Assembly: GCA_947503685.1 (NCBI GenBank)
Contig: CANNEW010000004.1
Coordinates: 1-32,271, forward strand
Direction: 5' to 3'
Length of the DNA: 32,271 bases
Source: Comamonadaceae bacterium
GTDB lineage: Bacteria; Pseudomonadota; Gammaproteobacteria; Burkholderiales; Burkholderiaceae_C
Each line of letters begins with the position of its first letter. The first letter of the stretch is position 1. Both the position numbers and the translations under genes were made by a program. Positions 589-31,624 of the stretch are shown here, one piece after another. The notes under the pieces were generated by a model. That model was not told where the DNA came from and ran no database searches. It worked only from the letters and a program-made list of their open reading frames with translations.

Positions 589-772
589 CCGCAGGAGGAT
601 ACCAGTGCAAGCGCGAAGCGTCGGGCCACCGACGGGGCGGAGCAGGTTGGGACCTATGGGCCCACGCGGTGTGGCCGCTTTGGTGTGGGCCTGGCGGGCT
701 TCGTTGTAGTATTGCCGCTTACCATGAAGGTCGCTGCGCTTGGCAGCGGCCATTGATCCACAGGAGTTTCCT

Positions 773-1747
773 ATGCAGCGTCGCCCCTTAGTCGTTTCCA
801 CTTTTATCCTTAGTGCCCTGGTCGCGGCCAGTGGCGTATGGGCCCAGGCCTACCCCAACAAGCCAGTGAAATTGCAGGTGCCGTTTGCGCCCGGCGGCAC
901 CACCGACATCGTGGCCCGGGTGATTTCCGATGCCATGGGCAAGGCTCTGGGGCAGAGCGTGGTGGTGGAAAACAAGGCCGGCGGTGGCGGCGTGATTGGC
1001 GCCAACGAAACCGCCAAGTCCACGCCCGATGGCTATTCGCTAGGCATGGCCACCGTGTCCACGGTAGCGGCTAACCCGGCCATCAACGCCAAAATCCCGT
1101 ACAACTCGCTCACCGATTTCACACCGATCATCAATGTGGCGGCCACGCCGAATGTGATTGCAGTGCACCCCAGTTTTCCCGCCAAGGACTACAAGAGCTT
1201 TGTCGCCGAACTGAAAAAAAACCCCGGTCAGCATTCCTACGCGTCCTCGGGCACGGGCGGCATCGGGCACTTACAAATGGAGTTGTACAAAAACCTGGCC
1301 GGTGTCTTTGTGACCCATATTCCTTACCGGGGCGCAGGCCCGGCGCTCAACGACACCGTGGCTGGCCAGGTGCCGATTATTTTTGACAATATGCCATCGG
1401 CTTTGCCTTTCATTCAGGCCAATAAATTGGTGGCCATTGCAGTAGCAGCGCCGCAGCGCCTGTCGCAATTACCCCAAGTGCCGACCTTCAAAGAAGTGGG
1501 TTTAGAGCCGGTGAACCGCATGGCGTTTTACGGTATTTACGGCCCCAAAGGTTTGCCCAAAGACGTGGTGGATAAAGTCAATGCCGCAGTACGCAAGGCC
1601 TTGGAAGACCCCTCGGTTCGCAAGCGCATCGAGGACACCGGCTCGATCATCATTGGCAACACCCCCGAGCAATTTGCAGAGCAAATGAAGGCCGAATACG
1701 CGGTCTATAAGCAAGTGGTAGAGACAGCCAAACTCAAGCTCGACTGA
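773..1747 (+). CDS. Tripartite tricarboxylate transporter (Bug/TctC-family) periplasmic substrate-binding protein
   Basis: [51 protein letters not shown]...; signal peptide and '[23 protein letters not shown]' motif are hallmarks. ATG at 773 preceded by AGGAG; the listed 740 start is upstream of the signal peptide. Confidence 0.93.
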
Positions 1748-1749
1748 GT

Positions 1750-2676
1750 TTGCCCAGCCTGCCACCGAGCACCGTGCCTGCATCGGCGAGTGATGCGTCT
1801 ATCGACGCATTTGTCGATGCGCTGTGGCTGGAAGACGGGCTGGCACTTAACAGCTTGCAGGCCTACCGGCGCGACCTGGTCAAGCTGCAAGCCCATCTGC
1901 AAGGCGCGTCGCTGACCAGTTGTTCGCAATGGCAATTGCAGCATTACTTTGCGGCGCAACATGGGGGTAGCAAAGCCACTACCGCCAACCGCCGCCTGAC
2001 GGTCTTTAAGCGCTACTTCCGCTGGGCACTGCGCCATGGACTGGTGCAGCAAGACCCTACGCTACAGCTTCAATCGGCCAAGCAGGCCTTGCGTGTGCCC
2101 AAGACCTTGAGTGAAGCCCAGGTCGAAGCCTTGTTGGCCGCGCCCGATGTGGGCAGCGCCATTGGCGTGCGTGACCGCACCATGCTGGAGCTGATGTACG
2201 CCAGCGGCCTGCGGGTGAGTGAACTGGTCGGGCTCAAAGTGTTTCAACTCGGGCTCAACGACAACGTCTTGCGGGTGATGGGCAAGGGCTCCAAAGAGCG
2301 CCTGGTGCCCTATGGCGAAGTGGCAAGCCAGTGGCTGGGTAATTACCTGGGCGGCGCCCGCGATGTCTTGCTTGGGGGCAAGCAGACCGAAGCGCTATTT
2401 GTGACCACCCGCGGAACCGTTGCGGGCGGCGCCATGACGCGGGTGATGTTTTGGATGCTGGTGAAAAAATATGCGCTGCTGGCTGGCATCCAGGTGCCTT
2501 TGTCGCCGCACACTTTGCGTCACGCATTTGCCACGCACTTACTCAACCATGGCGCCGATTTGCGGACGGTGCAACTGCTGCTGGGCCATGCCGATATTTC
2601 CACCACTACGATCTACACCCATGTCGCGCGCGAACGCCTGGCCAAGCTGCATGCAGAGCACCACCCCAGGGGATAA
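1750..2676 (+). CDS. xerD: Site-specific tyrosine recombinase XerD
   Basis: Tyrosine recombinase with SPHTLRHAFATHLLNHGADLRTVQLLLGHADISTTTIYTHV and N-terminal SAM-like domain; TTG start 2 nt after the upstream stop. Confidence 0.92.
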   Translation: MPSLPPSTVPASASDASIDAFVDALWLEDGLALNSLQAYRRDLVKLQAHLQGASLTSCSQWQLQHYFAAQHGGSKATTANRRLTVFKRYFRWALRHGLVQQDPTLQLQSAKQALRVPKTLSEAQVEALLAAPDVGSAIGVRDRTMLELMYASGLRVSELVGLKVFQLGLNDNVLRVMGKGSKERLVPYGEVASQWLGNYLGGARDVLLGGKQTEALFVTTRGTVAGGAMTRVMFWMLVKKYALLAGIQVPLSPHTLRHAFATHLLNHGADLRTVQLLLGHADISTTTIYTHVARERLAKLHAEHHPRG

Positions 2677-2685
2677 GCACAGCGT

Positions 2686-3612
2686 TTAGTCGGCCCTGCG
2701 CGGCTTCAAAAACGGCAGGCTCCACAAACCGCTGGACAAGCTGGTGCCCAAGACGATGACCAGAGCGCAACCCAGCATCCAGTGCGTCACGCCTTCACCC
2801 AGCAAGACCACGCCATAGGCAATGGCAAATACCGGGATGGCAAAAGTCACCGTTAATGCGCGGCCTGGGCCGGCGTTGGCAATCAGCCGGAAATACAGGA
2901 TGTAGGCGCTACCGGTACACAGCACGCCTAGCGCGCTAACGGCCAGCCACGCTTGCGTGCTAGGTGCCTGCGCCGGCCAGTACCAAAGACAAAAAGGCAG
3001 CAAAAAAATCGAGGCACCCAACTGGCTGCCGGTGGCCGATACCAACGAGGGCACGCCACCCAAAAAGCGCCGCGTATAGCTGGCGGCAATGCCGTAGCAC
3101 AGGCAGGCCAGTAGGCTGGCGGCAATGCCCCAGGCGCTGGAGCCGCCCAGGGGATTGGCGTCAAAGCTGGCGTTCTCACTGGCCAATAAGGCAATGCCGG
3201 CAAAGCCGATGAGTAAGCCCACCGCGCGCGAACCCGATGGCCGCTCACCCAGCCAGGCCCAGGCGACGAGCGCGCCAAACAAGGGTACGGTGGCATTGAG
3301 CACCGAGGACTGGCCGATAGAAATATTTTGCAGCGCAAAGGCGATGCAGACAAAGGGAATGGCCGAATTGATCACCCCGACCAGCAGGACTTTTTTCCAA
3401 TGCAGCACAAAGTCGGCCCGGTGCCCGCGCAGCAGCATCAAGGGCAGCAGCACGGCGCTGGCGATGATCACGCGCAGCGCGGCGGTGGCCACTGGCCCAA
3501 ATCCGACCATACTCAGGCGTGTGAATAAAAAAGAAGCGCCCCAGATGGCTGCGAGGGCAATGAAATCAGGTACCCAGCGTGCTGGGCGCGCGTCGCTGAC
3601 AAGGAGATTCAA
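2686..3612 (-). CDS. DMT-superfamily (EamA) transporter
   Basis: 308 aa, about 10 TM segments, EamA pattern ([13 protein letters not shown]...; [27 protein letters not shown]). Confidence 0.88.
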
Positions 3613-4106
3613 ATCGCGCTTTCGAGTTGCAGAAGGGCGATCTTACGTGGCAGGCCACCAGCGTAACCGGTCAATTGACCATTGCTACCTATCACGCGAT
3701 GGCAAGGAACAACGATGCTTAAAGGGTTGCGACCGATAGCTGCCCCGACCGCCCGCACCGCTAAAGGGCGTCCGATGGCTCGCGCAATCGCAGCGTAACT
3801 GCGGGTTTGCCCCGGCGCGATCTTGCCTAACTGGCGCCACACCGCTTGTTGAAAGTCGGTGCCAACGCTGTAATCCAGCGGCAGGGAAAAGCCATGGCCT
3901 CGCTGTAAAAAATATGCGCGTAATTGCGCATGTGCCAGATCATGAATCGCATGCGCGTTGACAGATGGGAAAGCATCGAGGGTTGGAAAGTGGTCCTGCC
4001 CCTCAAACCACAAGCCCAGCAGCCCGTTTGCATTGGCGAGCAGGTGAATCCGGCCCAAGGGGCTGCAGTAAGTCGATTGAACGGCTTGGGGATCAAAGGG
4101 TTTCAT
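3609..4106 (-). CDS. ogt: Methylated-DNA--protein-cysteine S-methyltransferase
   Basis: Active-site motif [32 protein letters not shown]; overlaps the upstream gene by 4 nt. Confidence 0.93.
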
Positions 4107-5695
4107 GGTGCTATGGGGTGTTCAGGTGCGCTGCGCATTGCCGCACGTTGCCAGGCTCGTACGGTGGCGTAACTGCGCCAGGGTCGCCAGGGCTGCGATG
4201 CTGCTTGCGCTAAGGCTTTGGCGCCGGGTTCATGCGCCAGGCCCAGCGCCTTGTGTAAGGCTACATCACCGGTGGGAAATGCGTCGGGCCATCGCAATGC
4301 CCGCATAGCAATGTATTGCGCCGTCCATGGCCCAATGCCCTCGATGGATTGCAGTCGCTCCAGAGTTACTTGCAGCGGCGCGCCAGGTGCGAGCCGCAAA
4401 TCCTCCCGCGCCACGGCGCGCGCCAGCCCAATAATGGCGGCCTGGCGTTGGCGCACAATGCCCAGCGCACCCAAAGCCGACGCCGGTAAGTCGGCTAGGC
4501 GCGTAGCCTGTGGGAAATAGTGTGTGATTCCTTGCAATGGCATGTGTGCGCTGTCTGCCACGGCAGTGCCGAAGGCCAGTACCAGGCGCGCACTGATTGT
4601 GCGGGCCGCAGCGACCGTGATTTGTTGGCCCAGTATCGCGCGCACTGCCAGCTCGAAGCCATCGACCGTGCCCGGCAGGCGCATGCCTTCGGTGCCCGGA
4701 AAAGCCGGTGCCAACAAGGCCTCATAGGCCAGGGGATCGGCATCGAGGTCCAGCAAGTGGCGGCATAAGCCCTGTACCTCAAGCAAGGCGGGCCCCAGCG
4801 AGACGCTGATTTGCAGCTGTACCAATGTGCTGTTCGGAACAAAGCGCGCCACCATCCAACCCTGGTAGCGGTGAGCACCCTGACCCAGACACAAACTGCG
4901 GGCGTAGCGCAGTTGTGCCAGGTCCACCGCTTCCAGCCCGGGCAATGCGCGCTGATGCAAAAAGCCGATCAAATGGGTGGCATCCAGCGGCGGCCGGTAA
5001 GCTAATGTGACGCTTAAACCAGCGGCCAGTGGGTGGCCGTTGCTGCTTGCCGGCGCATTCCCAATTCTGAAGGTCCTGCGCATGGAGCCTGGCGTGAGCC
5101 GGTAGTGCTTGGCAAACACGGCGTTAAAGCGCCGAGCGCTGCCAAAGCCACTGCGCTGTGCTACCTCGCTGAGGGGCCAGCGGGTATCGGTGAGCCACTG
5201 CTTGGCAAATAAGAGGCGGCGCGTTTGCAGGTATTCCAGCGGCGCGATATGCATGTGTTCTTCCATCAGGCGGCGCAAGTGGCGCTCACTGATGCCCAAA
5301 CGCGCAGCCCAGCTTCGCACGGTCCATTGCACCGAACCGTGACCCTTGGAGACGTCCAATAATTGAAGCGCCTGGCGCACCAACATTACACCGGCGTCTT
5401 GCGTGGACCAGTGGTAGAGCCCTGGCGCCGCAGGCGCTAGTTCCGGCCGGCAACGCAAACAGGGACGAAAACCTGCAGCCTCGGCCTGGGCTGGAAGCGC
5501 AAAAAAAACGCAGTTTTTTTCCAAGGGAATACGCACTTTGCAGACCGGGCGGCAGTAAATGCCGGTAGAGCGCACGCCGGTAAAAAAATGCCCGTCAAAG
5601 CGCGCGTCCCGGGCTTGCAGTGCCCGGTAACAGGCCACGGAATCCATGGAAAGACCGGTGGCTGTGGTAAGTGGTGAGGTCGCATGCAATGGCAT
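4103..5695 (-). CDS. Ada (metal-binding domain + AraC HTH) fused to AlkA-type DNA-3-methyladenine glycosylase
   Basis: Ada N-domain [30 protein letters not shown]...[10 protein letters not shown]; AraC HTH; C-terminal HhH glycosylase [18 protein letters not shown]...[23 protein letters not shown] open to TTG at 5734; ATG at 5695 or 5647 more likely. Confidence 0.92.
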
Positions 5696-5876
5696 GGGCC
5701 GATGATACGCAGGACCGGCGTCGCGCTTAGTCAAAATCGGACATGACTTTTACGGGACCTCGTCGTCCGCCTTCGAAAACGGCCCTTTGCCGGGGGCTTA
5801 ATCTCCGGCAGCAACTTGTATGCTTATATCGGCGTGTTGTCGAGTGCGCACCAAGGCGCGGCACAAGGCCATTATG

Positions 5877-5905
5877 AAAAAGCAGCCCTGGTGGCTGCAT
5901 TTTTC
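5877..5905. terminator. Candidate bidirectional rho-independent terminator
   Basis: AAAAA-GCAGCC-CTGGT-GGCTGC-ATTTTTC: 6-bp GC stem flanked by A-run and T-run. Confidence 0.7.
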
Positions 5906-5942
5906 AATCGATCATCTTGGCGTTAGCGCCAACACAGGATAG

Positions 5943-6452
5943 CTAAGCGGGAATTGCCAAACTTAAATCCAACGGGGTCTTGTCGGTCACCAGTTCGCCG
6001 GTTTCGATATACACCTTGTGGCCTGCCAAGATGCCATTGAGCAGTTTGGTGTTCATGGACTTCATGACCAGCGTATTGACGAGGTCAAAAAAGGCATTTT
6101 TCATAGAATAAGTCATGGTGCCGGTTAACACCGTAGTATTTCCGTTGGGCGCGATGTCCAAGCGGAGTTTGACGGTTTTGAGGCCCGGCATTTTGCGCAG
6201 TTCGTAGACCTCTACCGTGACGGTCTGCCCCTCGACCCACTCGGTGACACGTTCTTCTGCGCTGCCGCCCATCATGGTGAAGTCGCAATGCCGGGTGGCA
6301 CCCACACCGCTGATTTGTACGGAAGTGACGCGCGATTTGCGTACGGCGGGATGGCCGTGACAGATGTTGCCAAAATCCGCCAAGATGGGCCAGACTTTGT
6401 GGGTTGGCATGTTGATATCAATGGCTCTTTTTAAGACGGTGAATTTTTCCAT
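5943..6452 (-). CDS. SRPBCC-family protein (polyketide cyclase/MxaD-like)
   Basis: MEKFTVLKRAIDINMPTHKVWPILADFGNICHGHPAVRKSRV...; START-like fold pattern. Start placed at ATG 6452 with upstream AAAAGGA; the listed N-terminus translates an A/T tract. Confidence 0.82.
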   Translation of the reverse strand: MEKFTVLKRAIDINMPTHKVWPILADFGNICHGHPAVRKSRVTSVQISGVGATRHCDFTMMGGSAEERVTEWVEGQTVTVEVYELRKMPGLKTVKLRLDIAPNGNTTVLTGTMTYSMKNAFFDLVNTLVMKSMNTKLLNGILAGHKVYIETGELVTDKTPLDLSLAIPA

Positions 6453-6488
6453 ATAGTCCTTTTGAAGTATGGGCGGCAGCGTGGTGTC

Positions 6489-6539
6489 TAATTTTATTAT
6501 AAAAATAATAATAATTTTATAAAAAATAATAAAAAATAA
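6489..6539 (-). promoter_or_regulatory. 51-nt pure A/T promoter tract upstream of the SRPBCC gene
   Basis: Uninterrupted A/T from 6489 to 6539; reverse strand contains TATAAT at 6501-6496, about 45 nt before ATG 6452. Confidence 0.55.
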
Positions 6540-6799
6540 CAAAAACTACCATGCCGCCATGGCAAGCCGCAATTCGGCGGCCTTCAGCCTGGCCAGCGCG
6601 GGGGAGCGGGTTGATTGCGGTCTTTATCACCCGCACCGATCGGCTGCTACCGCATTTGTGCCCCATGGTGCAGCAACCGGAGTGCAATTTGCGGCTGTAG
6701 GCCTTGCGCCGTGGCTGGCAGCTACCCCTTCTACAATGCGCTTCGCTACGCGCGCGTTGGTCCCCTGCGCATACAAAAAAACTCAAGAACCTTCACAAT

Positions 6800-8182
6800 A
6801 TGCAACTTTCCCCCACTATTTTTAAAGCCTACGACATCCGGGGCATCGTGCCATCCACCGTGCATGCCGATATGGCGCGCGCTCTAGGCCGCGCTTTCGG
6901 CACCCTGGCCATGCGCCAGGGCGAGCGCACGGTGGCCGTAGGGCGTGACGGACGCCTGAGCGGGCCGCTGCTGGCTGGCGCATTAATGCAGGGCTTGCAG
7001 GATGCGGGCGTGCAGGTCATCGACATCGGTCCGGCCACCACGCCTATGCTGTACTTTGCCGCCTGCACCTTGTGCAATAGCGGCATCCAGGTTACGGGGA
7101 GCCACAACCCACGGGATTACAACGGCTTCAAAATGGTCCTGGGCAGCAAGGCGATTTACGGCGAGGAAATCCAGTCCCTGCGCCGCATCATGGAAGACGA
7201 AAGCTGGGATTTGCAAGCCGGTGGTGGCTGTACCCAGGCCGATGTTTTGCCCACGTATCGCGAACGCATCGTAGGTGACATCCAGTTGGCGCGTCCGCTC
7301 AAAATAGTGGTGGATTCGGGCAATGGCATCGCCGGGGCCAGCGCGCCGGGCATTTTGCGCGCCATAGGCTGTGAGGTGACAGAGTTGTACAGCGATGTGG
7401 ATGGCAATTTTCCCAACCACCACCCGGACCCGAGCAAGCCCGAAAATCTGCGCGACCTGATCGCCGCCTTGCAGGCCAGTGACGCCGAGCTGGGCCTGGC
7501 CTTTGATGGCGACGGCGACCGCTTGGGAATTGTGACGCGCGATGGCAGCAATATTTTTCCGGACCGGCAAATGATGTTGTTTGCGCAGGACGTGCTGTCG
7601 CGCGTGCCGGGCGCTACGATTTTGTTTGATGTGAAGTGCTCGCAGCGCCTGGCTCCGGCCATAGCTGCAGCAGGTGGCGTGCCGCTGATGTTCAAGACCG
7701 GCCATTCTTTGATCAAAGCAAAAATGCGCGAGATCGATTCGCCCCTGGGTGGCGAGATGAGCGGGCATATATTTTTCAAAGAGCGCTGGTTTGGCTTTGA
7801 CGACGGCACCTATGCAGGATGCCGTTTGCTGGAGATCGTCAGCCGTGTCGCCGACTCCAATGCTTTGCTGCACGCCTTGCCCACCAGCTTTTCCACGCCC
7901 GAGCTCAACGTGCCCTGCCAAGAAGGCGAAGCGCAGGCCGTAGTGGAACGCTTGGTAGCGGCGGCAAACTTTGCCGCCCCAGCGGTATGCACCACTATCG
8001 ATGGTTTGCGCGTGGATTGGCCCGATGGTTTTGGCCTGGTGCGTGCCTCCAACACCACGCCAGTGCTGGTGCTGCGCTTTGAGGGCCACGATGCGCAGGC
8101 GCTGGCACGCATTGAAGACGCCATGATGATTTTGTTGCGCAGCGTGAAGCCTGATGCGCGGGTTAAAGAGGCTGCGCATTGA
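6800..8182 (+). CDS. Phosphomannomutase/phosphoglucomutase
   Basis: MQLSPTIFKAYDIRGIVPS...; phosphoserine loop VTGSHNPRDYNGFKM; metal loop LAFDGDGDRLGIV; GGEMSGHIFF. Start at ATG 6800. Confidence 0.95.
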   Translation: MQLSPTIFKAYDIRGIVPSTVHADMARALGRAFGTLAMRQGERTVAVGRDGRLSGPLLAGALMQGLQDAGVQVIDIGPATTPMLYFAACTLCNSGIQVTGSHNPRDYNGFKMVLGSKAIYGEEIQSLRRIMEDESWDLQAGGGCTQADVLPTYRERIVGDIQLARPLKIVVDSGNGIAGASAPGILRAIGCEVTELYSDVDGNFPNHHPDPSKPENLRDLIAALQASDAELGLAFDGDGDRLGIVTRDGSNIFPDRQMMLFAQDVLSRVPGATILFDVKCSQRLAPAIAAAGGVPLMFKTGHSLIKAKMREIDSPLGGEMSGHIFFKERWFGFDDGTYAGCRLLEIVSRVADSNALLHALPTSFSTPELNVPCQEGEAQAVVERLVAAANFAAPAVCTTIDGLRVDWPDGFGLVRASNTTPVLVLRFEGHDAQALARIEDAMMILLRSVKPDARVKEAAH

Positions 8183-8200
8183 AACTTACCGCCTGGCCCC

Positions 8201-9208
8201 ATGCGCATCTTGATCGTTAAGCTTTCCTCCTTGGGTGATGTCATTCAGACCATGGCGGTGGTGCCAGACCTATTGGCGGTGGTTCCAAACGCAGAGATCG
8301 ATTGGGTCGTAGAAGAAGCGTTTGCGCCCTTAGTGTCTTTGGTGAGCGGCGTGCGTGCCGTCATACCGATTGGACAAAGGCGTTGGCGTAAGTCTTTTTT
8401 TAGCGCGCCGACACGCGCAGAACGCCGCGCATTCCACTCCCGACTGCGGCAGGATGCCTATGACGCTGTGATTGACTTCCAAGGGCTGATTAAGTCTGCT
8501 TGGGTGGCCCGTGCAGCCCGCCTGCAGCCCGGTGGCTTTAGCGCGACCTACGCCAATGGAAGTGATGCCTGTTCCTACGAGTGGCCGGTTCATTACTTGC
8601 TGCAGCGCAGTTTTCCGATGCCGCGCCGTATCCATGCGGTGGCCCGTTACCGTTTGCTGGCAGCGCAGGCATTGGGTTACAGCGGACAGGCGCTACATAT
8701 GCCGGCGCGTTGCGGCTGGAATTTTGATCTGCATACCGCTGCACCCAAGGCTCCCCCCGAGGTGGTGCTGGCGCATGGCACCACGCGTTCGGATAACGAG
8801 TGGCCGGATGCTCATTGGCTGGATTTAGCCCGGCAACTAATTACGGACGGGTTTTCTGTGGGCTTGCCGCACGCGGGGGCGCGGGAGTTGGTACGGGTAA
8901 AGGCGCTTGCGGACCAACTGGGCTCGATGGCTTGCGTTTGGCCGTCGCAAAGCCTGGACGCGCTGGCCCGTCGAATGGCTGCCAGTGCTGGAGTGATTGG
9001 CGTTGATTCTGGTCTGAGCCATTTGGCAGTAGCGCTTGACTTGCCGCATGTACAGATATTCAGCCAGGACCGCGCGTGGCGTGCCGGGCCGGTGGGGCGA
9101 GACTACCAACGTGTAGTCGGCGGTGCACAGGCACCCGACGTGGCCCAGGTGCTGGATACCTGGCAAGCAGCAATTGCCTCATCGCACGTGGGCCGGGTAC
9201 GCCCATGA
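8201..9208 (+). CDS. waaC: Lipopolysaccharide heptosyltransferase I
   Basis: MRILIVKLSSLGDVIQTMAVVPDLLAVVPNAEIDWVVEEAFAPLV...; GT9 family pattern, GVIGVDSGLSHLAVAL. Confidence 0.93.
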   Translation: MRILIVKLSSLGDVIQTMAVVPDLLAVVPNAEIDWVVEEAFAPLVSLVSGVRAVIPIGQRRWRKSFFSAPTRAERRAFHSRLRQDAYDAVIDFQGLIKSAWVARAARLQPGGFSATYANGSDACSYEWPVHYLLQRSFPMPRRIHAVARYRLLAAQALGYSGQALHMPARCGWNFDLHTAAPKAPPEVVLAHGTTRSDNEWPDAHWLDLARQLITDGFSVGLPHAGARELVRVKALADQLGSMACVWPSQSLDALARRMAASAGVIGVDSGLSHLAVALDLPHVQIFSQDRAWRAGPVGRDYQRVVGGAQAPDVAQVLDTWQAAIASSHVGRVRP

Positions 9209-10536
9209 ACAACTCGGGGTCCCAGTTGCCCGCACCGCGTACCGTCTCTGCTTTGCAAAGCCTGGTGCATCTGCTTTACAGCGGCTTGATGGTCTTGTTG
9301 CAGCCCGCGCTGCGCTGGAAGCTGCGCCGCCGGGCGCGTAGCGAACCGGCGTATGCGCAGCATGTGGAACAGCGTTTCGGGCATTACGGCTCTGCAGCCT
9401 TGCAATCCGGTCCGGTGTTGTGGGTGCATTCCGTGTCCCTCGGTGAAACCCGTGCTATCGGAGCATTGATTGCTTTATTGCGCACGCAATGGCCCGGGAT
9501 GCGCTTATTACTCACCCATGGCACGGCCACCGGGCTGGATGCTGGCGCTGACTTGCTGCAAGCAGGCGATTTACAGGTTTGGCAGCCCTGGGACACGCCT
9601 GCCGTCACGCGTAGTTTTGTGCAGCACTTCAGGCCGCGCCTAGGCTTGTTGGTGGACACCGAAATCTGGCCCAATCTGGTGCGCGCTTGCGCCCAGGCCT
9701 CGGTGCCGCTGTGCCTGGTCAATGCGCGCTTAAGCGCGCACTCCTTGCAGCGCGCCCGGCGCTTGCATTGGTTGGCCGAACCGGCTTATCAGAGCCTGGC
9801 CGGCGTTTGGCCGCAGGACGAGGACCAGTCGATGCGGTTTCGCGCGCTGGGGGTCAAGCCCCATGCGCCGACCGGCAATATCAAATTTGACATGGAGCCC
9901 GAGCTGGCTTTGTGGAGCCAAGGCCAAGCGGCCCGCCAGGCGCAACTGCGCCCGGTACTGATGCTGGCCGTGAGCCGCGAAGGCGAAGAGCAGATGTGGC
10001 TGGATGCGATGCGCCATGCGCAAGCAAGCGGGCTGGGTATGGACCGGGTGCAGTGCTTGATCGTGCCGCGCCATCCGCAGCGTTTTGACACGGTAGCCGA
10101 CTTGCTGCAGTCGGCGGGCTTGTCGGTGGCGCGCCGATCGGTCGATGGCGCCCCGTTTTCGGCCGCTGACGTTTGGTTGGGCGATACGCTGGGAGAGATG
10201 GCGTTTTATTATGGGCTGGCCGATGTGGCCTTGCTGGGCGGCAGCTTTGCGCCGCTAGGCGGGCAAAACCTGATTGAGGCTGCCGCCTGCCGTTGCCCGG
10301 TGGTCATGGGCCCGCATACCTTTAATTTTGCGCAAGCCGCCGAGATGGCCCAGGAAGCGGGCGCCGCTTTGCTGCGGCCTGACATGGCATCGGCCATGCA
10401 AGCGGCTTTGCAACTTCTGGAAGACAAAGCGGCCCTGGAAGCTGCCAGCAGCGCCGCTTGGGCTTTTGCGCAGACCCACCGGGGTGCGGCACTGCGTTTA
10501 AGCCGGGCCTTGGATGTGCTGTGGCGTCATGGCTAA
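9205..10536 (+). CDS. waaA: 3-deoxy-D-manno-octulosonic acid transferase
   Basis: LWVHSVSLGETRAIGALIALLRTQWPGMRLLLTHGTATGLDAG, VDTEIWPNLVRAC, LLGGSFAPLGGQNLIEAAA; ATG at 9205 overlaps waaC stop (ATGA). Confidence 0.95.
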   Translation: MNNSGSQLPAPRTVSALQSLVHLLYSGLMVLLQPALRWKLRRRARSEPAYAQHVEQRFGHYGSAALQSGPVLWVHSVSLGETRAIGALIALLRTQWPGMRLLLTHGTATGLDAGADLLQAGDLQVWQPWDTPAVTRSFVQHFRPRLGLLVDTEIWPNLVRACAQASVPLCLVNARLSAHSLQRARRLHWLAEPAYQSLAGVWPQDEDQSMRFRALGVKPHAPTGNIKFDMEPELALWSQGQAARQAQLRPVLMLAVSREGEEQMWLDAMRHAQASGLGMDRVQCLIVPRHPQRFDTVADLLQSAGLSVARRSVDGAPFSAADVWLGDTLGEMAFYYGLADVALLGGSFAPLGGQNLIEAAACRCPVVMGPHTFNFAQAAEMAQEAGAALLRPDMASAMQAALQLLEDKAALEAASSAAWAFAQTHRGAALRLSRALDVLWRHG

Positions 10537-23544: not shown

Positions 23545-23641
23545 CGGGGGGGAAGCGGGGGGTAAACCGATATCCCGGTAATTCAGTAACCAGCCCGTAA
23601 CGAATCACCAATGAGAAGTGGAAAAATGCGTTACCATCCAT

Positions 23642-23660
23642 TATGTAATTTTGTTACATA
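23642..23660. promoter_or_regulatory. HexR-like operator upstream of edd
   Basis: TATGTAA-TTTTG-TTACATA, perfect 7-5-7 inverted repeat with core TGTAATTTTGTTACA resembling the reported HexR motif TGTAATwwwATTACA; overlaps a TATACT -10-like element at 23659-23664. Confidence 0.6.
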
Positions 23661-23680
23661 TACTGGTTACACCGCCCACC

Positions 23681-25537
23681 ATGCCACTCCATCCCCGCAT
23701 CCAGTCGGTTACCGACAGCATCATCGCCCGCAGCGCACCCACCCGCAGCGCTTACCTGGCCCAGGTCGATGCCATGGCCCAGCGACCGCCGGGCGCGCAG
23801 CGCATGGGCTGCGCCAATGTGGCGCATGCCTTTGCCGCCATGGAGCCTGCCGACAAGCGCCGCGCTAGCGCCCTGGACAAAGTGCAAGTGATCGGGCATC
23901 GCGCGCCCAATATCGCCATCATCAACGCCTACAACGACATGCTCTCGGCCCACGCGCCCTTGCAGCATTACCCCGACATCATCAAACACGAAGCCCGCCA
24001 GTGGGGCGCTACCGCGCAGGTCGCCGGTGGCGTGCCCGCGATGTGTGACGGCGTGACCCAGGGCACCGCCGGCATGGAGCTCAGCCTGTTCTCGCGCGAC
24101 GCGATTGCCATGGCCACGGCGGTATCGCTCAGCCACGACATGTTTGACTGCGCGCTGATGCTGGGCGTGTGCGACAAGATTGTTCCTGGCCTCTTGATAG
24201 GCGCATTGCACTTTGGGCATTTGCCCACCGTGTTTGTGCCGGCCGGGCCCATGACTTCGGGCTTGCCCAATAAAGAAAAAGCCAAGGTGCGCGAACAAGC
24301 TGCGCTGGGGCTGGTGGACCGCGCCGAGTTGCTGCAAGCCGAGTCTGCCGCCTACCACGGCGAAGGCACTTGCACTTTTTACGGTACGGCCAATAGCAAC
24401 CAAATGCTGCTCGAAGCCATGGGCCTGCATGTGCCGGGCACTGCGTTTGTGAACCCCGGCGCCTCTATGCGTGAGCAACTGACGCGCGAGGCAGCGCGCA
24501 CCGTGCTGGGCCACAGCGAAGGCACCGCGAGCGTTGTTGCATGCCCCCCGATTGGCCGCGTGGTGGACGAGCGCTGCATCGTCAACGCCATGGTCGCTTT
24601 GCTAGCCACCGGCGGCTCGACCAACCATTTAATTCATTGGGTGGCCGTTGCCCGTGCGGCGGGCATCATCATCGACTGGGACGATTTTTCCGCGCTTTCA
24701 GATGTAGTGCCCACGCTCACCCGCGTCTATCCCAACGGCAGCGCCGACGTCAACCAATTCCAGGCAGCCGGTGGCCCCGGATATGTGATACGCGAACTGT
24801 TGGACGCGGGATTGCTTCACGCTGATGCGTTGACAGTGCGCCCTGGTGGATTGCGTGAATTCACCCGTATTGCGCAGGCGGACGCCCAAGGGGCACTGGC
24901 CTGGCGTGATGCTGGTGCGAGTGGCGACCTGTCGGTGGTGCGGCCGGCAGCCGAGCCTTTCAATGCCAGTGGTGGTTTAAAGCTCTTGCAAGGCAAGCTG
25001 GGGCGCAGCGTGATGAAAGTGTCTTCCGTGCCCGAAGAACGCCACATCGTGCAAGCGCCCTGTCGTGTATTTGCATCGCAAGAAGAATTGCATGCTGCCT
25101 TTCAGGCCGGCGAATTGGACCGTGACGTGGTCTGCGTGGTGCGTTGGCAAGGGCCGCAAGCCAATGGCATGCCCGAACTGCACAAGCTCACGCCCCCCTT
25201 GGCCATCCTACAAAACAAAGGCTATGAAGTGGCCCTGGTGACCGATGGGCGCATGAGTGGTGCATCGGGCAATGTGCCCGCCGCCATCCATGTATCGCCC
25301 GAGGCCGCAGCCGGGGGACCACTGGCCAAGCTGCAGGACGGCGACGTCATTCGTGTGGACGCGGTCACGGGCAGCCTGGACGTGCTGGTGGACGCAGCAC
25401 AATGGGAAGCCCGGCCCACCGCCACCATGCCCGCCGCCTTGCGAGCGGCCAACGGCCTAGGCATGGGGCGCGAGCTGTTTGCCGGCATGCGGCGCAATGC
25501 GCTGGCGGCCGAGCAGGGCGCTTGCAGCTGGCTTTAA
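23681..25537 (+). CDS. edd: Phosphogluconate dehydratase (Entner-Doudoroff)
   Basis: [30 protein letters not shown]...; [78 protein letters not shown]. Start ATG 23681 (listed 23618 is upstream). Confidence 0.96.
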
Positions 25538-25555
25538 TTTTTGAAGGACAGGACC

Positions 25556-26194
25556 ATGACGCACAGCTCTTTAACCTCCTTGCAAGTGATGCAAGACGCG
25601 CCCGTGATTCCGGTCATCGTACTGAACGATGTGGCCCACGCCGTGCCCGTGGCACGCGCCTTGGTGGAGGGCGGCATTCGCATGTTGGAAGTGACGCTGC
25701 GCACTCCGCAAGCGCTGGCCTGCATTGAAGCGATCGCCAAGGCCGTGCCCGAGGCAGTGGTCGGCGCGGGCACCTTGCGCTCTAAAGCCGATGCGCAGGC
25801 CGCGGCCAATGCAGGCGCGCGCTTCGCAGTAAGCCCCGGCTACACCACCGCGCTAGGCGCCGCCTGCCGCGACCTGGGCCTGCCTTTGTTGCCCGGCGTG
25901 GCCACCGGCGGCGAAATCATGGCCGCGAAGGAGGACGGTTTTGGCGCGCTGAAGTTTTTCCCCGCCCTGCAAGCGGGTGGCAGCGCCATGCTCAAGGCCT
26001 GGAGCGGGCCATTTTTTGATGTGAAGTTCTGCCCCACGGGAGGCATCAGCCTACAAAACGCCCCCGACTTCCTGGCCCTGCCCAATGTGCTGTGCGTAGG
26101 CGGTTCCTGGTTGGTGCCCGCCGCCGCCTTGGCACAGAGCGACTGGGCACGCATCACGACGCTGGCGCGCCAGGCGGTTGCGCTCAGGGTTTAG
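25556..26194 (+). CDS. eda: 2-dehydro-3-deoxy-phosphogluconate (KDPG) aldolase
   Basis: MTHSSLTSLQVMQDAPVIPVIVLNDVAHAVPVARALVEGGIRMLEVTLRT...VGAGTLR...FGALKFFPALQAGG...FCPTGGIS; RBS AAGGACAGGA. Confidence 0.96.
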   Translation: MTHSSLTSLQVMQDAPVIPVIVLNDVAHAVPVARALVEGGIRMLEVTLRTPQALACIEAIAKAVPEAVVGAGTLRSKADAQAAANAGARFAVSPGYTTALGAACRDLGLPLLPGVATGGEIMAAKEDGFGALKFFPALQAGGSAMLKAWSGPFFDVKFCPTGGISLQNAPDFLALPNVLCVGGSWLVPAAALAQSDWARITTLARQAVALRV

Positions 26195-27154: not shown

Positions 27155-29203
27155 TTACAGCACCCGAGCCAGGCGCAGCCCGTCCAACACCGCCGCATGC
27201 GTATTGCGCGCCGCCACCGCGTCGCCGATGCGAAAGAGCTGAAACGCACCCGCCGGGTTGGGCCGCAAGGTTTGTGCTTGCAGCGCCGTTAGCGCCGCAT
27301 AGTCCGCCGCGCCCAGGTTGCTTGAGTGGGGTTTGAGCGCAAAGTACAGGTCGTCCAGCGGCAGCGTGCCGTGGTTCACGATTACCTGGTCAACGATACG
27401 TTCTTTGTGCACGCCGCCGTAGTCGCTGCCGACCACGGCTTTGAGGCCCTCAGCGCAACGCTCCACCGATAGCAGCCGGAAAGTCACGGTAAACGTCACG
27501 TCGAGTTTTTGCAGGCTGCGCATATAGGGCACCAGGTTCATGGCCATCACTTCGGGTGCAAAGCTGCGGTCCGGCGTCATGATTTCCAGCCGCGCGCCGC
27601 TTTTGGCAATCACTTCAGCCGCTTGCAGCGCAGGGTGGTCACCGGCGTCGTCAAACAACAGCACGTTCTTGCCCGGCGCTACCTCGCCGCTCAGGATGTC
27701 CCAGGTGGAGGCCACCAATTCGTTTCCGCTTTGCAGCACCTCGGTATGCGGCATGCCGCCGGTGGCGATGATGACCACGTCTGGGTTTTCTGCCAGCACC
27801 GTGGTTTCGTCGGCCAGGGTATTGAAGCGGAAAGTCACGCCGCGCTCTTCGCAGCGCGCCATACGCCAGTCGATGATGCTTAGCATTTCACGCCTACGCG
27901 GGCTCACCGCCGTCAGGCGAATTTGCCCTCCGGGCTTGGGCGCCGCTTCCAGTACCGTCACCGCGTGCCCGCGCTCGGCGCTCACGCGTGCGGCCTCCAA
28001 GCCCGCAGGTCCGGCGCCGACGATCAGCACTTTGCGCCTGGCAGCAGCAGGCTCGATCTCGTGCGGCAGTGTGAGTTCGCGACCAGTTGAAGGGTTGTGG
28101 ATGCAATAGGCTTCGCCACCGGCATAAATGCGGTCCAGGCAAAAGTTACCGCCCACGCAAGGGCGGATGGTGTCTTCGCGGCCTTCCATGATTTTGCGCA
28201 TGATGTGCGGGTCCGCCATGTGCGCCCGCGTCATGCCCACCATGTCCAGCTTGCCACTGGCAATGGCGTGGCGCGCGGTATTCACGTCTTGGATCTTGGC
28301 GGCGTGGAAGATGGGCACGTTTACGTGCTCGCGCAAGCTGCCGGCAAAGTCCAGGTGCGGTGCGCTGGCCATGCCTTGCACCGGTATCACATCAGTGAGG
28401 CCCGCATCGGTATCGATATGGCCGCGAATGATGTTCAAAAAATCTACCATGCCGGAGTTGGCCAGGTAGCGTGCAATACCTATGCCATCTTGCGCACTGA
28501 TGCCGCCGGGCCGCACTTCGTCGGCCACGCCGCGCACGCCCAAAATGAACTCCGGCCCCACGCGCTTGCGGATGGCGCGTACCACCTCCATCGCAAAGCG
28601 CACCCGGTTTTCCAATACCCCGCCAAATGGTGCGTCTAGTGTGTTGGTCGAGGGCGACCAAAACTGGTCGATCAAATGCCCGTAGGCCTCCAGCTCCAGG
28701 CCATCGACTCCGGCTGCGTGCATGCGTTCGGCGGCGTCTGCATAGTCGCTGATGATGCGGTCGATGTCCCAGTCTTCCATCTTTTTGGGGAAGGCGCGGT
28801 GCGAGGCCTCGCGCTCGTGCGAGGGTGATACCACCGGCAACCAGTCGGCCTTGGACCAGCTGGTGCGTCGGCCCAGGTGGGTAATCTGGATCATCACCGC
28901 CGCGCCGTGTTCGTGGCAGGCGTCGGTCAGGTCGCGCATCCAGGGCACAACTTCGTCTTTGTAGGCCAGTATGTTGTTAAACACCGGCGGGCTGTCGCGT
29001 GAAACGGCTGCGGAGCCTGCAGTCATCGTCAGCGCAATACCAGCTTTGGCGCGCTCCACATGGTAGGCGCGGTATTTGGCCTTGGGCATGCCGTCCTCGG
29101 GGTATGCCGGCTCGTGCGAGGTAATCATCAGCCGGTTTTTCAGGCGCAGATGCTTGAGCTGAAAAGGCTGTAGCAAGGGGTCTTTGGAGGCGGTGCTGGT
29201 CAT
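27155..29203 (-). CDS. NADH:flavin oxidoreductase / FAD-dependent demethylase-like flavoprotein (TMADH/DgcA-like)
   Basis: 682 aa: N-terminal OYE-type TIM barrel (FQLKHLRLKNRLMITSHEPAYPEDGMPK), RPCVGGNFCLDRIYAGGEAYCIHNPSTGRE cluster motif, C-terminal dinucleotide-binding VLIVGAGPAGLEAARVSAERGHAVTVLEA. Confidence 0.88.
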   Translation of the reverse strand: MTSTASKDPLLQPFQLKHLRLKNRLMITSHEPAYPEDGMPKAKYRAYHVERAKAGIALTMTAGSAAVSRDSPPVFNNILAYKDEVVPWMRDLTDACHEHGAAVMIQITHLGRRTSWSKADWLPVVSPSHEREASHRAFPKKMEDWDIDRIISDYADAAERMHAAGVDGLELEAYGHLIDQFWSPSTNTLDAPFGGVLENRVRFAMEVVRAIRKRVGPEFILGVRGVADEVRPGGISAQDGIGIARYLANSGMVDFLNIIRGHIDTDAGLTDVIPVQGMASAPHLDFAGSLREHVNVPIFHAAKIQDVNTARHAIASGKLDMVGMTRAHMADPHIMRKIMEGREDTIRPCVGGNFCLDRIYAGGEAYCIHNPSTGRELTLPHEIEPAAARRKVLIVGAGPAGLEAARVSAERGHAVTVLEAAPKPGGQIRLTAVSPRRREMLSIIDWRMARCEERGVTFRFNTLADETTVLAENPDVVIIATGGMPHTEVLQSGNELVASTWDILSGEVAPGKNVLLFDDAGDHPALQAAEVIAKSGARLEIMTPDRSFAPEVMAMNLVPYMRSLQKLDVTFTVTFRLLSVERCAEGLKAVVGSDYGGVHKERIVDQVIVNHGTLPLDDLYFALKPHSSNLGAADYAALTALQAQTLRPNPAGAFQLFRIGDAVAARNTHAAVLDGLRLARVL

Positions 29204-29233
29204 GGCATGTTCGCTTTGGAGAACGTTAAAGGA

Positions 29234-30823
29234 TTAGTACCACTGGTCTGGCATAGACGCTTTGGTGCGGTCCATAAAGTCGCGCAGGGCTTCGTCCACC
29301 GATACATCCATGGGTGGCGCCACATATTCGGCCAGCGACTGCTTCCATCGTTTGTTGGCGCGGGTGGCAGCATCGCTCTGGCCCGCTTCGGTCCAGGTTT
29401 CGAACGGCGTGTCGTCCGAAATACTGGAGTCAAAAAACGCAGTGGTGTAGTTGGCCATGGTGTGCGCGCTGCCCAGGTAATGACCGCCGGGCGTTACGCC
29501 CTGGAAAGCGCTCATGGCTAGGGAATTTTCATCGACCGTGACGCCGTTCACATAGCTGTGCAGCGCGCCGCAAAAGTCGGCGTCCATCATGAATTTTTCA
29601 TAGCTCATGGACAAGAGCCCGTCCAAAAAGCCGGCCGCGTGCAATATGAAATTAGCGCCGCAATGGATGGCCGAGAGCATGGACATCACGCTCTCTTGCA
29701 TGGCCTGGCCGTCGGGCAGTTTGGAGGTGGTGAAAGAGCCGGCGCAGCGCAGCGGCAAATTTAAGCGGCGTGCCAATTGGCCCACCACCATAGAGCCAAT
29801 GGCCGGTTCGGGTGTGCCAAAAGTGGGCGAGCCCGAACGCAGCGACATGCTGGACAAAAAGTTGCCGTAAATCACCGGCGCGCCGGGGCGCTCCAACTGC
29901 GTGAGCGCGCAGCCGACCATGGTTTCGGCGTGCGCTTGCGCAATCGCACCGGCATTGGTCACCGGCCCCATGGCACCGCCCAAGATAAAGGGCACGATCA
30001 CCGCCGCCTGGTTGGCGCGCGCGTAGGCGCGGGCCGACTTGGTCATGGTGCCATCCCACAGCAAGGGCGAATTGACGTTCACATTGCCCATCACGACGCA
30101 GTTTTCATCGACAAACTTCTCGCCAAACAGAATGCGGCTCATGGCAATTGAATCCTCGGCACGCTGCTCGGAGGTGATAGAGCCCATATAGGCTTTGTCC
30201 GAATAGCGCATGTGCGAATACACCATGTCCAGATGCCGCTTGTTTACGGGTACATCGGTGGGTTCGCAGACGGTGCCGCCGCTGTGGTGCAACCAGGGGC
30301 TGCTGTAGGCCAGCTTGATAAAGTTTTGAAAATCTTCGATGGTGCCGTAGCGGCGCCCCCGGTCTAGGTCCATCACAAAGGGCGAGCCATAGGCCGGCGA
30401 GAAAACGATGTTTTTGCCGCCAATGGGCACGCTATGCGTTGGGTTGCGGGCATGCTGGGTGAACTGGGCTGGTGCGGTTTTCAGCACCTCTTGCAAGTGC
30501 CCCGGCTCAAAGCGCACCCGCATGCCATCGACCTTGGCGCCGGATTTTTTAAATAGCGCCAACGCTTCGTCGTCGTCGCGGATGTCCAGGCCGATCTCGG
30601 CCAGGATGCGGTCGGCCGTCGCTTCGATCTGCAGCAGGCTTTCCTCGCCCAGCACTTCGTAGGTGGGGATGACGCGTTTGATATAGGCCGGGCCTGTGGG
30701 CCGGGCGTTAGGGTCGCGCCGCTCGCGTCCGCCTAAGCGGCGGTTGGCGCGGGCCGGTGCGGGCTCGGGCACGCTCGCGGGTTCGCTGATGGGGGCTGGG
30801 GCGCTGGCTTCTAGCGTGTTCAT
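29234..30823 (-). CDS. Trimethylamine methyltransferase (MttB)-superfamily protein, non-pyrrolysine type
   Basis: 529 aa uninterrupted: YIKRVIPTYEVLGEESLLQIEATADRILAEIGLDIRDDDEAL...ILGGAMGPVTNAGAIAQAHAETMVGCALTQLERPGAPVIYGNF...; MttB family pattern. Confidence 0.9.
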   Translation of the reverse strand: MNTLEASAPAPISEPASVPEPAPARANRRLGGRERRDPNARPTGPAYIKRVIPTYEVLGEESLLQIEATADRILAEIGLDIRDDDEALALFKKSGAKVDGMRVRFEPGHLQEVLKTAPAQFTQHARNPTHSVPIGGKNIVFSPAYGSPFVMDLDRGRRYGTIEDFQNFIKLAYSSPWLHHSGGTVCEPTDVPVNKRHLDMVYSHMRYSDKAYMGSITSEQRAEDSIAMSRILFGEKFVDENCVVMGNVNVNSPLLWDGTMTKSARAYARANQAAVIVPFILGGAMGPVTNAGAIAQAHAETMVGCALTQLERPGAPVIYGNFLSSMSLRSGSPTFGTPEPAIGSMVVGQLARRLNLPLRCAGSFTTSKLPDGQAMQESVMSMLSAIHCGANFILHAAGFLDGLLSMSYEKFMMDADFCGALHSYVNGVTVDENSLAMSAFQGVTPGGHYLGSAHTMANYTTAFFDSSISDDTPFETWTEAGQSDAATRANKRWKQSLAEYVAPPMDVSVDEALRDFMDRTKASMPDQWY

Positions 30824-30944: not shown

Positions 30945-31307
30945 TCAGGCCGGGGTGCGCGTGGCCTTACCGACCTTGATACCCAGCACCAGGCACAGAG
31001 CCCGCTCAATCTCTGCCATATCTTGGGCGCCTATGTCGGTGATATAGCCCGACAGCCGGGATTTGTCGATTGCGCGTATGTGTTCGGTACGTACCTTGGA
31101 ACTGGCACTGACCGAGGGCGTGGCGATTAACAAGGGGAAGACGGCGGGCGTGTCCGTTGTGGTGAGCGGCAACACAACGACGGTGCGGCGGTGGTCGTTG
31201 ATTTCTTTGACAGATAGCACCACGCAGGGGCGGCGCTTAGCCATTTCGGAACCCCGTGCGGGGTCCAGCCCCACCCAATGCACTTCCCCGCGCTGTATGG
31301 ACTTCAT
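30945..31307 (-). CDS. Type II toxin, PemK/MazF-like endoribonuclease
   Basis: MKSIQRGEVHWVGLDPARGSEMAKRRPCVVLSVKEINDHRRTVVVLPLTTT...VRTEHIRAIDKSRLSGYITDI. Confidence 0.92.
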   Translation of the reverse strand: MKSIQRGEVHWVGLDPARGSEMAKRRPCVVLSVKEINDHRRTVVVLPLTTTDTPAVFPLLIATPSVSASSKVRTEHIRAIDKSRLSGYITDIGAQDMAEIERALCLVLGIKVGKATRTPA

Positions 31308-31624
31308 GCAGGCAGCGCCCGCGCGGTTTTGGCCGGTTTGTAGTCTTTGGCCTTACGCTCCTGCAAAAAGCGTTGCTCGTCGAATTCGCCTCCGGCCAGC
31401 GCATCGTCTAGCTCTAGCCAATCCGCATCGTCTGCGGTGTGGGGTTGCTCCAGCAACGACAGTCGCTGCGCCGCCTCTTCCAACTCGCGGCTTTCACGAT
31501 CCAGTTCGCGGCGCACCAGGTCGACCACAAACTGGTTGCGCTTGCGCGACGGCGAGCTCGCCGCCAGACGCTGCGCCAGGTCCTGGGGCAGGCGTAGGGT
31601 GATTTGTTGAGTTGGTTTCATCAT
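31304..31624 (-). CDS. Cognate antitoxin, ribbon-helix-helix (CopG/Arc-like)
   Basis: MKPTQQITLRLPQDLAQRLAASSPSRKRNQFVVDLVRRELDRESRELEEAAQRL; 4-nt overlap with PemK-like toxin start. Confidence 0.8.
   Translation of the reverse strand: MMKPTQQITLRLPQDLAQRLAASSPSRKRNQFVVDLVRRELDRESRELEEAAQRLSLLEQPHTADDADWLELDDALAGGEFDEQRFLQERKAKDYKPAKTARALPA

Follow-up and report, generated by a model that had tools for sequence, protein, structure and literature searches.

Which amine a non-pyrrolysine methyltransferase of the MttB superfamily demethylates, and which protein receives the methyl group, is the question raised by a gene pair in the DNA of a freshwater Comamonadaceae bacterium (GenBank assembly GCA_947503685.1). 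The pair encodes an MttB-type protein, P0001, and a flavoprotein, P0002, and lies on contig CANNEW010000004.1, whose 32,271 nucleotides (the window) are the entire contig C4 of a draft genome of 2.64 Mb in 312 contigs that is 81% complete. To our knowledge, the majority of genes of the MttB superfamily are without an assigned substrate. A first interpretation, made from the letters of the DNA and termed here the sequence-only reading, was that the two proteins form an N-demethylation route, with the corrinoid protein encoded elsewhere or a different methyl acceptor in its place. The general idea of a two-enzyme route is supported by the present analysis, which is built on direct observations of the genes and their families, of where they fall in phylogenetic trees, of the ligand residues that they conserve and of how often they occur together. 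We propose that the two genes rather probably constitute a two-step betaine demethylation module in which an MttB step is followed by an HpbA step, with proline betaine as the predicted substrate.

The gene pair and the MttB-type protein

In the open reading frame (ORF) list of the window the two genes are codirectional on the minus strand and 30 nt apart, exactly where the sequence-only reading had placed them: P0001 (529 aa) is encoded at 29234..30823 and P0002 (682 aa) at 27155..29203, with the intergenic spacer at 29204..29233. They are probably cotranscribed. The closest homologues, up to 99% identical, come from metagenome-assembled genomes (MAGs) that bear the labels Comamonadaceae, Comamonas, Rhodoferax or 'beta proteobacterium', in keeping with the earlier assignment to a beta-proteobacterium.

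P0001 matches the PF06253 MTTB profile over its full length (750 bits, positions 5–500), and its ORF contains neither an in-frame stop nor a TAG codon, as had been noted from the sequence. The position equivalent to pyrrolysine is Phe364 (codon 29732..29734, minus strand), which aligns to the X of MttB 7xcl and corresponds to leucine in MtgB sequences. P0001 belongs to the non-pyrrolysine branch of the MttB superfamily (PF06253/COG5598) and is a predicted betaine:corrinoid-protein methyltransferase. Its identification as the pyrrolysine-containing trimethylamine methyltransferase MttB was rejected on the lack of a pyrrolysine codon and on a TIGR02369 score of 254.6 bits against a cut-off of 525. 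The two proteins share superfamily and fold, although that of the window has no pyrrolysine. The AlphaFold2 (AF2) model of P0001 has a mean predicted local distance difference test score of 71.7 and gives the active-site loops with low confidence; it was therefore used to confirm the fold alone and not to describe the substrate pocket. Target-normalised template modelling (TM) scores are 0.88 to PDB entry 4yyc of Sinorhizobium meliloti and 0.85–0.86 to MtgB 9yce; for the pyrrolysine MttB of Methanosarcina the TM score is 0.80–0.81, with 22% identity over the structural alignment.

P0001 is 41% identical to MtgB of Desulfitobacterium hafniense and 54–56% identical to the MtgB core type that is linked to corrinoid gene clusters (54% to 4yyc of S. 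meliloti; also Paracoccus aminovorans). In a maximum-likelihood tree it falls in a clade of its own, termed clade A (support 100/98), and both the MtgB core (90/81) and the second MttB paralogue of the same genome lie elsewhere. Tight clustering with MtgB, which the sequence-only reading had named as speaking against its idea, is not what the tree gives, and membership of the MtgB clade was ruled out by the separate, supported position of P0001. Docking has predicted that Tyr94, Asn199, Arg309 and His345 of MtgB surround glycine betaine (PMC6855144). The corresponding residues of P0001, Tyr145 (codon 30389..30391), Asn249 (30077..30079), Arg359 (29747..29749) and His395 (29639..29641; all minus strand), are identical in 87 of 87 clade A sequences. 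At the same time, 37 otherwise fixed positions, including Phe364, Trp256 and Phe399, distinguish clade A from MtgB. Since the four docked contacts are kept alongside these 37 differences, the clade A pocket reads as one that would bind betaines but is tuned to a betaine other than glycine betaine.

Two further groups of paralogues were observed. The second MttB paralogue of the genome (contig C49, 1720–5738) is 38% identical to P0001, keeps three of the four predicted betaine contacts and lies beside a gene for an 809-aa dimethylglycine-dehydrogenase-like flavoprotein. A far group in the same genus (26–28% identity) is found at position 4272 of locus L120 and position 4026 of locus L121; the L120 protein keeps none of the four contacts, so the substrate of this group may be no betaine.

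Identity of the flavoprotein

P0002 consists of an Oxidored_FMN domain, the flavin mononucleotide barrel of the old yellow enzyme (OYE) type (172 bits), followed by FAD/NAD domains. This bears out the OYE/FAD-type architecture given by the sequence-only reading; the comparison to DgcA and to trimethylamine dehydrogenase (TMADH) that came with it did not hold, as P0002 is nearer to HpbA/StcD than to DgcA and its [4Fe-4S] motif is incomplete. The closest relatives on public plasmids are 72–73% identical, and some are annotated 'N-methyl-L-proline N-demethylase HpbA'. Among the matches listed, the HpbA-type group extends to ~69% identity and the next full-length matches stand at 44%. In a tree, P0002 nests with Paracoccus HpbA and StcD-like proteins (71–73% identity) at a node with 100/100 support. 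Identification as DgcA was rejected, as the flavoproteins of dgcA-dgcB-etf-gbcAB loci (L107 and L108, locus content confirmed) branch outside this group. NCBIfam holds no HpbA or DgcA model that tells the two apart.

The degenerate iron–sulfur motif of P0002, C349-VGGNF-C355 ... C367 (28103..28159, minus strand), is one cysteine and one residue short of the four-cysteine [4Fe-4S] motif CxxCxxxCx11C of TMADH and 2,4-dienoyl-CoA reductase. This loss argues against a TMADH-like iron–sulfur flavoprotein, and that class was ruled out. HpbA and DgcA alike are without the cysteine and the residue that 2,4-dienoyl-CoA reductase retains.

The genomic company of HpbA-type genes was also recorded. The hpbA locus of Paracoccus pantotrophus contains hpbD, a Rieske oxygenase and reductase, a betaine ABC transporter and a homologue of Δ1-pyrroline-5-carboxylate (P5C) reductase, and hpbA of Rhizobium etli adjoins Etf and formaldehyde-oxidation genes. 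A P0002 homologue is present on a 1.6-Mb plasmid of S. meliloti and is probably StcD, an N-methylproline demethylase gene of pSymB (PMC12239276). From its clade, P0002 is predicted to oxidise N-methylproline, or more broadly to demethylate an N-methyl cyclic amino acid.

These data bear on an alternative in which the pair would serve as a further pathway for glycine betaine, the MttB-type protein yielding dimethylglycine and the flavoprotein acting as DgcA. The identity of P0001 to the MtgB type and its four retained contacts would fit this, as would the relatedness of HpbA and DgcA, which are 43–45% identical and have the degenerate motif in common; moreover, no core MtgB gene was found in this MAG. 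However, P0002 lies outside the DgcA branch, clade A differs from MtgB at the 37 diagnostic positions, and most relatives hold, in addition to the clade A gene, a 55%-identical MtgB-type gene, located in examples near RamA, BetA or choline genes. We consider a glycine betaine route unlikely.

Conservation of the pair

Gene order was surveyed in 80 loci. The flavoprotein gene lies downstream in the same direction in 42 of the 45 betaproteobacterial loci with enough downstream sequence, and within 4 kb in 18 of 33 alphaproteobacterial loci. The median spacing between the homology matches to the two genes is 32.5 nt (60 loci), and 52 of the 80 loci have a LysR-type gene that is divergent from the operon. 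Among the 149 closest genomes to that of the window, 34 have clade A together with HpbA, 4 clade A alone, 4 HpbA alone and 107 neither, which places HpbA in 34/38 clade A genomes versus 4/111 others (Fisher's test, 1e-24); when the count is limited to relatives with a completeness of 90% or more, HpbA accompanies clade A in 18 of 19 genomes. Because clade A is limited to one genus in this set, the test was repeated on 201 alphaproteobacterial genomes, of which 52 carry both genes, 1 clade A alone, 43 HpbA alone and 105 neither (HpbA in 52/53 genomes with clade A versus 43/148 without; Fisher's test, 1.6e-20). The sequence-only reading had held that co-occurrence no better than chance would count against it; in both sets the counts are far from chance, and the pairing of clade A with HpbA is well supported. 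We found no description of this pairing in the literature, which was covered in part, and an earlier one is possible.

Conceivably the two genes are neighbours that share no metabolic coupling, given that they are not directly linked in 19 of the 52 alphaproteobacterial genomes having both (33 have them linked). Yet an HpbA-type gene is present, adjacent or not, in 33 of 33 clade A alphaproteobacterial genomes and is still in the genome when unlinked, and the gene order is kept in the great majority of betaproteobacterial loci, which makes mere adjacency extremely improbable. The dependency is one-way, with HpbA accompanying clade A almost without exception but also occurring where clade A is absent. 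An alternative first-step enzyme would explain the latter, with a Rieske enzyme as a candidate. Paracoccus and Sinorhizobium are known to break down proline betaine aerobically by way of an O2-dependent Rieske demethylase (Stc2/Hpb), which acts before HpbA/StcD. No Rieske homologue is present in the window's genome, and one at 45% identity or more is found in only 2 of the 38 HpbA-bearing relatives. Relatives with DgcA-type flavoproteins encode a Rieske enzyme within a few kilobases of the flavoprotein, on the same contig.

Around the pair, the window contains a toxin gene of the PemK/MazF type, preceded by a partner ORF (30945–31624), just upstream of the MttB gene. At this position the close relatives L015–L018 have a divergent LysR gene and L011–L014 have no such gene; tblastn found no remnant of the LysR gene in the window. 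On the other side (23618–26194) lie genes for the Entner–Doudoroff dehydratase and 2-keto-3-deoxy-6-phosphogluconate aldolase. As these also accompany the pair in ~10 related loci, its position looks chromosomal and fairly stable.

Probable source of the corrinoid protein

That no corrinoid partner is in view, as the sequence-only reading stated, is true of the window, and hence of contig C4, but false of the genome. When the whole draft genome was searched for the corrinoid-protein cap domain and the RACo/RamA domain, the matches fell on one contig, C74. A run of genes in one direction (695–9996) encodes, in order, a GbdR-like regulator, an MtgC-type corrinoid protein, a DUF1638 protein, a methylenetetrahydrofolate reductase C-terminal protein, MetF, a methyl-tetrahydrofolate (methyl-THF):corrinoid methyltransferase, a RACo/RamA activase, the choline dehydrogenase BetA and BHMT/MtgE. 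The best NCBIfam match of the corrinoid protein is MtgC, below the cut-off, and the DIHDIG cobalamin motif is present; the methyl-THF:corrinoid methyltransferase is of the MtgD type (363 bits against a cut-off of 259). The MtgC-type protein, RamA and methyl-THF enzymes for which the earlier reading had proposed a genome search are thus all on C74 together with MetF, and the idea of a missing corrinoid partner was rejected. The six core genes of C74 recur in Paracoccus aminovorans, in the same order and divergent from an MttB gene.

The C74 gene set equals the layout published for the glycine betaine demethylation system of Ruegeria pomeroyi, which was resolved genetically and in which MtgC and MtgD have a further role in making methionine (PMC12478193). 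Genomes with mtgC often hold several PF06253 genes, up to seven, for which other methylated substrates have been suggested (PMC12478193). In Eubacterium limosum, substrate-specific MttB genes lie apart from the shared MtqC, MtqA and RamQ (PMC8604678), and an absent corrinoid neighbour is therefore a known layout and not evidence for another methyl acceptor. It is the sole point in favour of an MttB-type enzyme that acts without a corrinoid protein, on a different acceptor. Against this stand MtgC, MtgD and RamA in the same genome, the E. limosum precedent and a near-perfect co-occurrence with RamA: all 22 relatives that have an MttB gene and a completeness of 90% or more contain it, and so do 32 of the 33 alphaproteobacterial genomes that carry clade A. 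Of the two options in the sequence-only reading, a corrinoid protein encoded elsewhere therefore stands and a different acceptor is not supported; we regard the latter as very improbable, and there is no reason to look further for an unusual methyl acceptor. It is close to certain, by inference, that clade A MttB proteins depend on a corrinoid, and P0001 would use the C74 corrinoid protein.

C74 also has a split methionine synthase arrangement (MtgC, MtgD and BHMT/MtgE), and no full MetH was found in the recovered contigs by the corrinoid-cap search. The same holds for most marine genomes bearing MtgBCD (PMC12478193).

Predicted substrate of the proposed module

Proline betaine is a salt-protectant of plants and algae. 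Three independent hints were taken towards a cyclic betaine. The flavoprotein partner is of the HpbA type, and proline betaine or a close cyclic betaine is indicated for that reason. On a Rhodobacter plasmid, a clade A MttB gene lies inside an hpbA-ProXWV-Rieske (proline betaine) locus. Finally, five Comamonadaceae operons (L024, L042, L049, L054 and L110) add a homologue of Δ1-pyrroline-2-carboxylate/piperideine-2-carboxylate reductase, of which the copy tested, that of L049, passes the curated model NF004793 (345 versus 322 bits). Proline betaine is the likely substrate on these sequence comparisons, with hydroxyproline betaine and pipecolate betaine as close rivals.

The same mechanism acting on another betaine (4-hydroxyproline betaine, pipecolate betaine or an N-methylated aromatic betaine) would accord with the reductase homologue in some operons, with an MR/MLE-family gene beside a Mesorhizobium clade A gene and with hpbD, a hydroxyproline betaine epimerase gene, in the hpb locus of P. 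pantotrophus. However, the Mesorhizobium MR/MLE enzyme is just 27% identical to HpbD, and the HpbA/StcD relatives are named N-methylproline demethylases (PMC12239276). This alternative appears somewhat unlikely, and proline betaine is preferred.

Several loci show variations on the pair. The five operons with the reductase homologue (for instance L024 9486–12402 and L110 11063–13979) also carry a further OYE-type flavoprotein with an intact CxxCxxxC motif, the two genes being inserted between or beside those for MttB and HpbA. On an Aminobacter plasmid (L118, 5884–13428), one run of genes encodes an MttB paralogue (43%) and its own corrinoid protein together with an enzyme of the MR/MLE family, a flavoprotein of the OYE type and a homologue of P5C reductase. 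On the Mesorhizobium plasmid (L097, 9911–15178), the clade A-related MttB gene is followed by that for the MR/MLE enzyme, and HpbA is replaced by an FAD oxidoreductase fused to GcvT, which may provide a folate-linked second step.

Discussion

In the proposed pathway, proline betaine, or else a closely related N,N-dimethylated cyclic amino acid, would bind in the P0001 barrel, as the conserved residues suggest. One methyl group would pass from the betaine to the Co(I) corrinoid of the C74 MtgC-type protein, a step suggested by the family and the co-occurrence data. Judged by homology of the C74 genes, the MtgD-type protein would transfer this methyl group from MtgC to tetrahydrofolate, MetF would oxidise it into the one-carbon pool, and RamA and the DUF1638 protein would keep the corrinoid reduced. 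P0002, by its clade, would then oxidatively convert N-methylproline to proline and formaldehyde. The MttB-type enzyme would thus take over, without O2, the role of the Rieske oxygenase in the aerobic proline betaine pathway.

The proposed module has elements of several known systems. PF06253, MtgC-type, MtgD, MetF2, RamA, DUF1638 and MtgE/BHMT proteins of the R. pomeroyi MtgBCD/MtgE/RamA system (PMC12478193) are all encoded in the window's genome, but the window MttB belongs to a sister clade of MtgB, and its gene is linked with that of an HpbA flavoprotein and not with the corrinoid cluster. MtpB of E. limosum, a proline betaine:corrinoid methyltransferase (cited in PMC8604678), is alike in its reaction, as predicted for P0001, and in a gene located away from those for the corrinoid protein and activase. 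However, E. limosum is an anaerobic acetogen that directs the methyl group to acetogenesis, whereas in the window's group, which is probably respiring, HpbA would remove the second methyl group. With the Paracoccus and Sinorhizobium pathway the module shares an HpbA-type flavoprotein for the N-methylproline step, but its first step is predicted to be a corrinoid methyltransferase in place of the O2-dependent enzyme. The DgcA-DgcB-Etf-GbcAB system has a related flavoprotein with the same degenerate motif; it differs in that the flavoprotein occupies a separate branch, that its first step is a Rieske reaction and that no DgcB or Etf is encoded beside P0002.

Several points weigh against this proposal. 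We found no report in the literature of activity for any clade A protein. The likeness of clade A to MtpB is one of predicted reaction and gene layout, and the four betaine contacts are docked and not measured (PMC6855144). The names HpbA and StcD derive from annotation and from the genetics of relatives that are 71–73% identical. No betaine transporter or proline gene adjoins the pair in the window, and the corrinoid genes are on a different contig of an incomplete MAG. The Fisher tests ignore relatedness within each lineage, and the flavoprotein is not specific to the corrinoid route, since nearly a third of the alphaproteobacterial genomes without clade A have HpbA.

The substrates of extra PF06253 paralogues were left open in the 2025 study of Ruegeria (PMC12478193). 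The partner enzyme, genomic company and conserved ligand residues now give one large MttB clade a specific substrate prediction. More broadly, it seems to us evenly balanced whether, in two unrelated lineages of respiring proteobacteria, the O2-dependent first enzyme of proline betaine breakdown has been replaced by a corrinoid methyltransferase that shares the MtgC/MtgD core of glycine betaine use and methionine synthesis. Clade A would then represent a branch of the MttB superfamily that works aerobically and has an assigned substrate other than glycine betaine, and S. meliloti would have both routes. Proline betaine matters in freshwater and in legume–rhizobium interactions. If the proposal is true, aerobic corrinoid-dependent demethylation would reach beyond glycine betaine to an osmolyte of plants and algae, and the corrinoid core would be a shared hub with exchangeable substrate heads.

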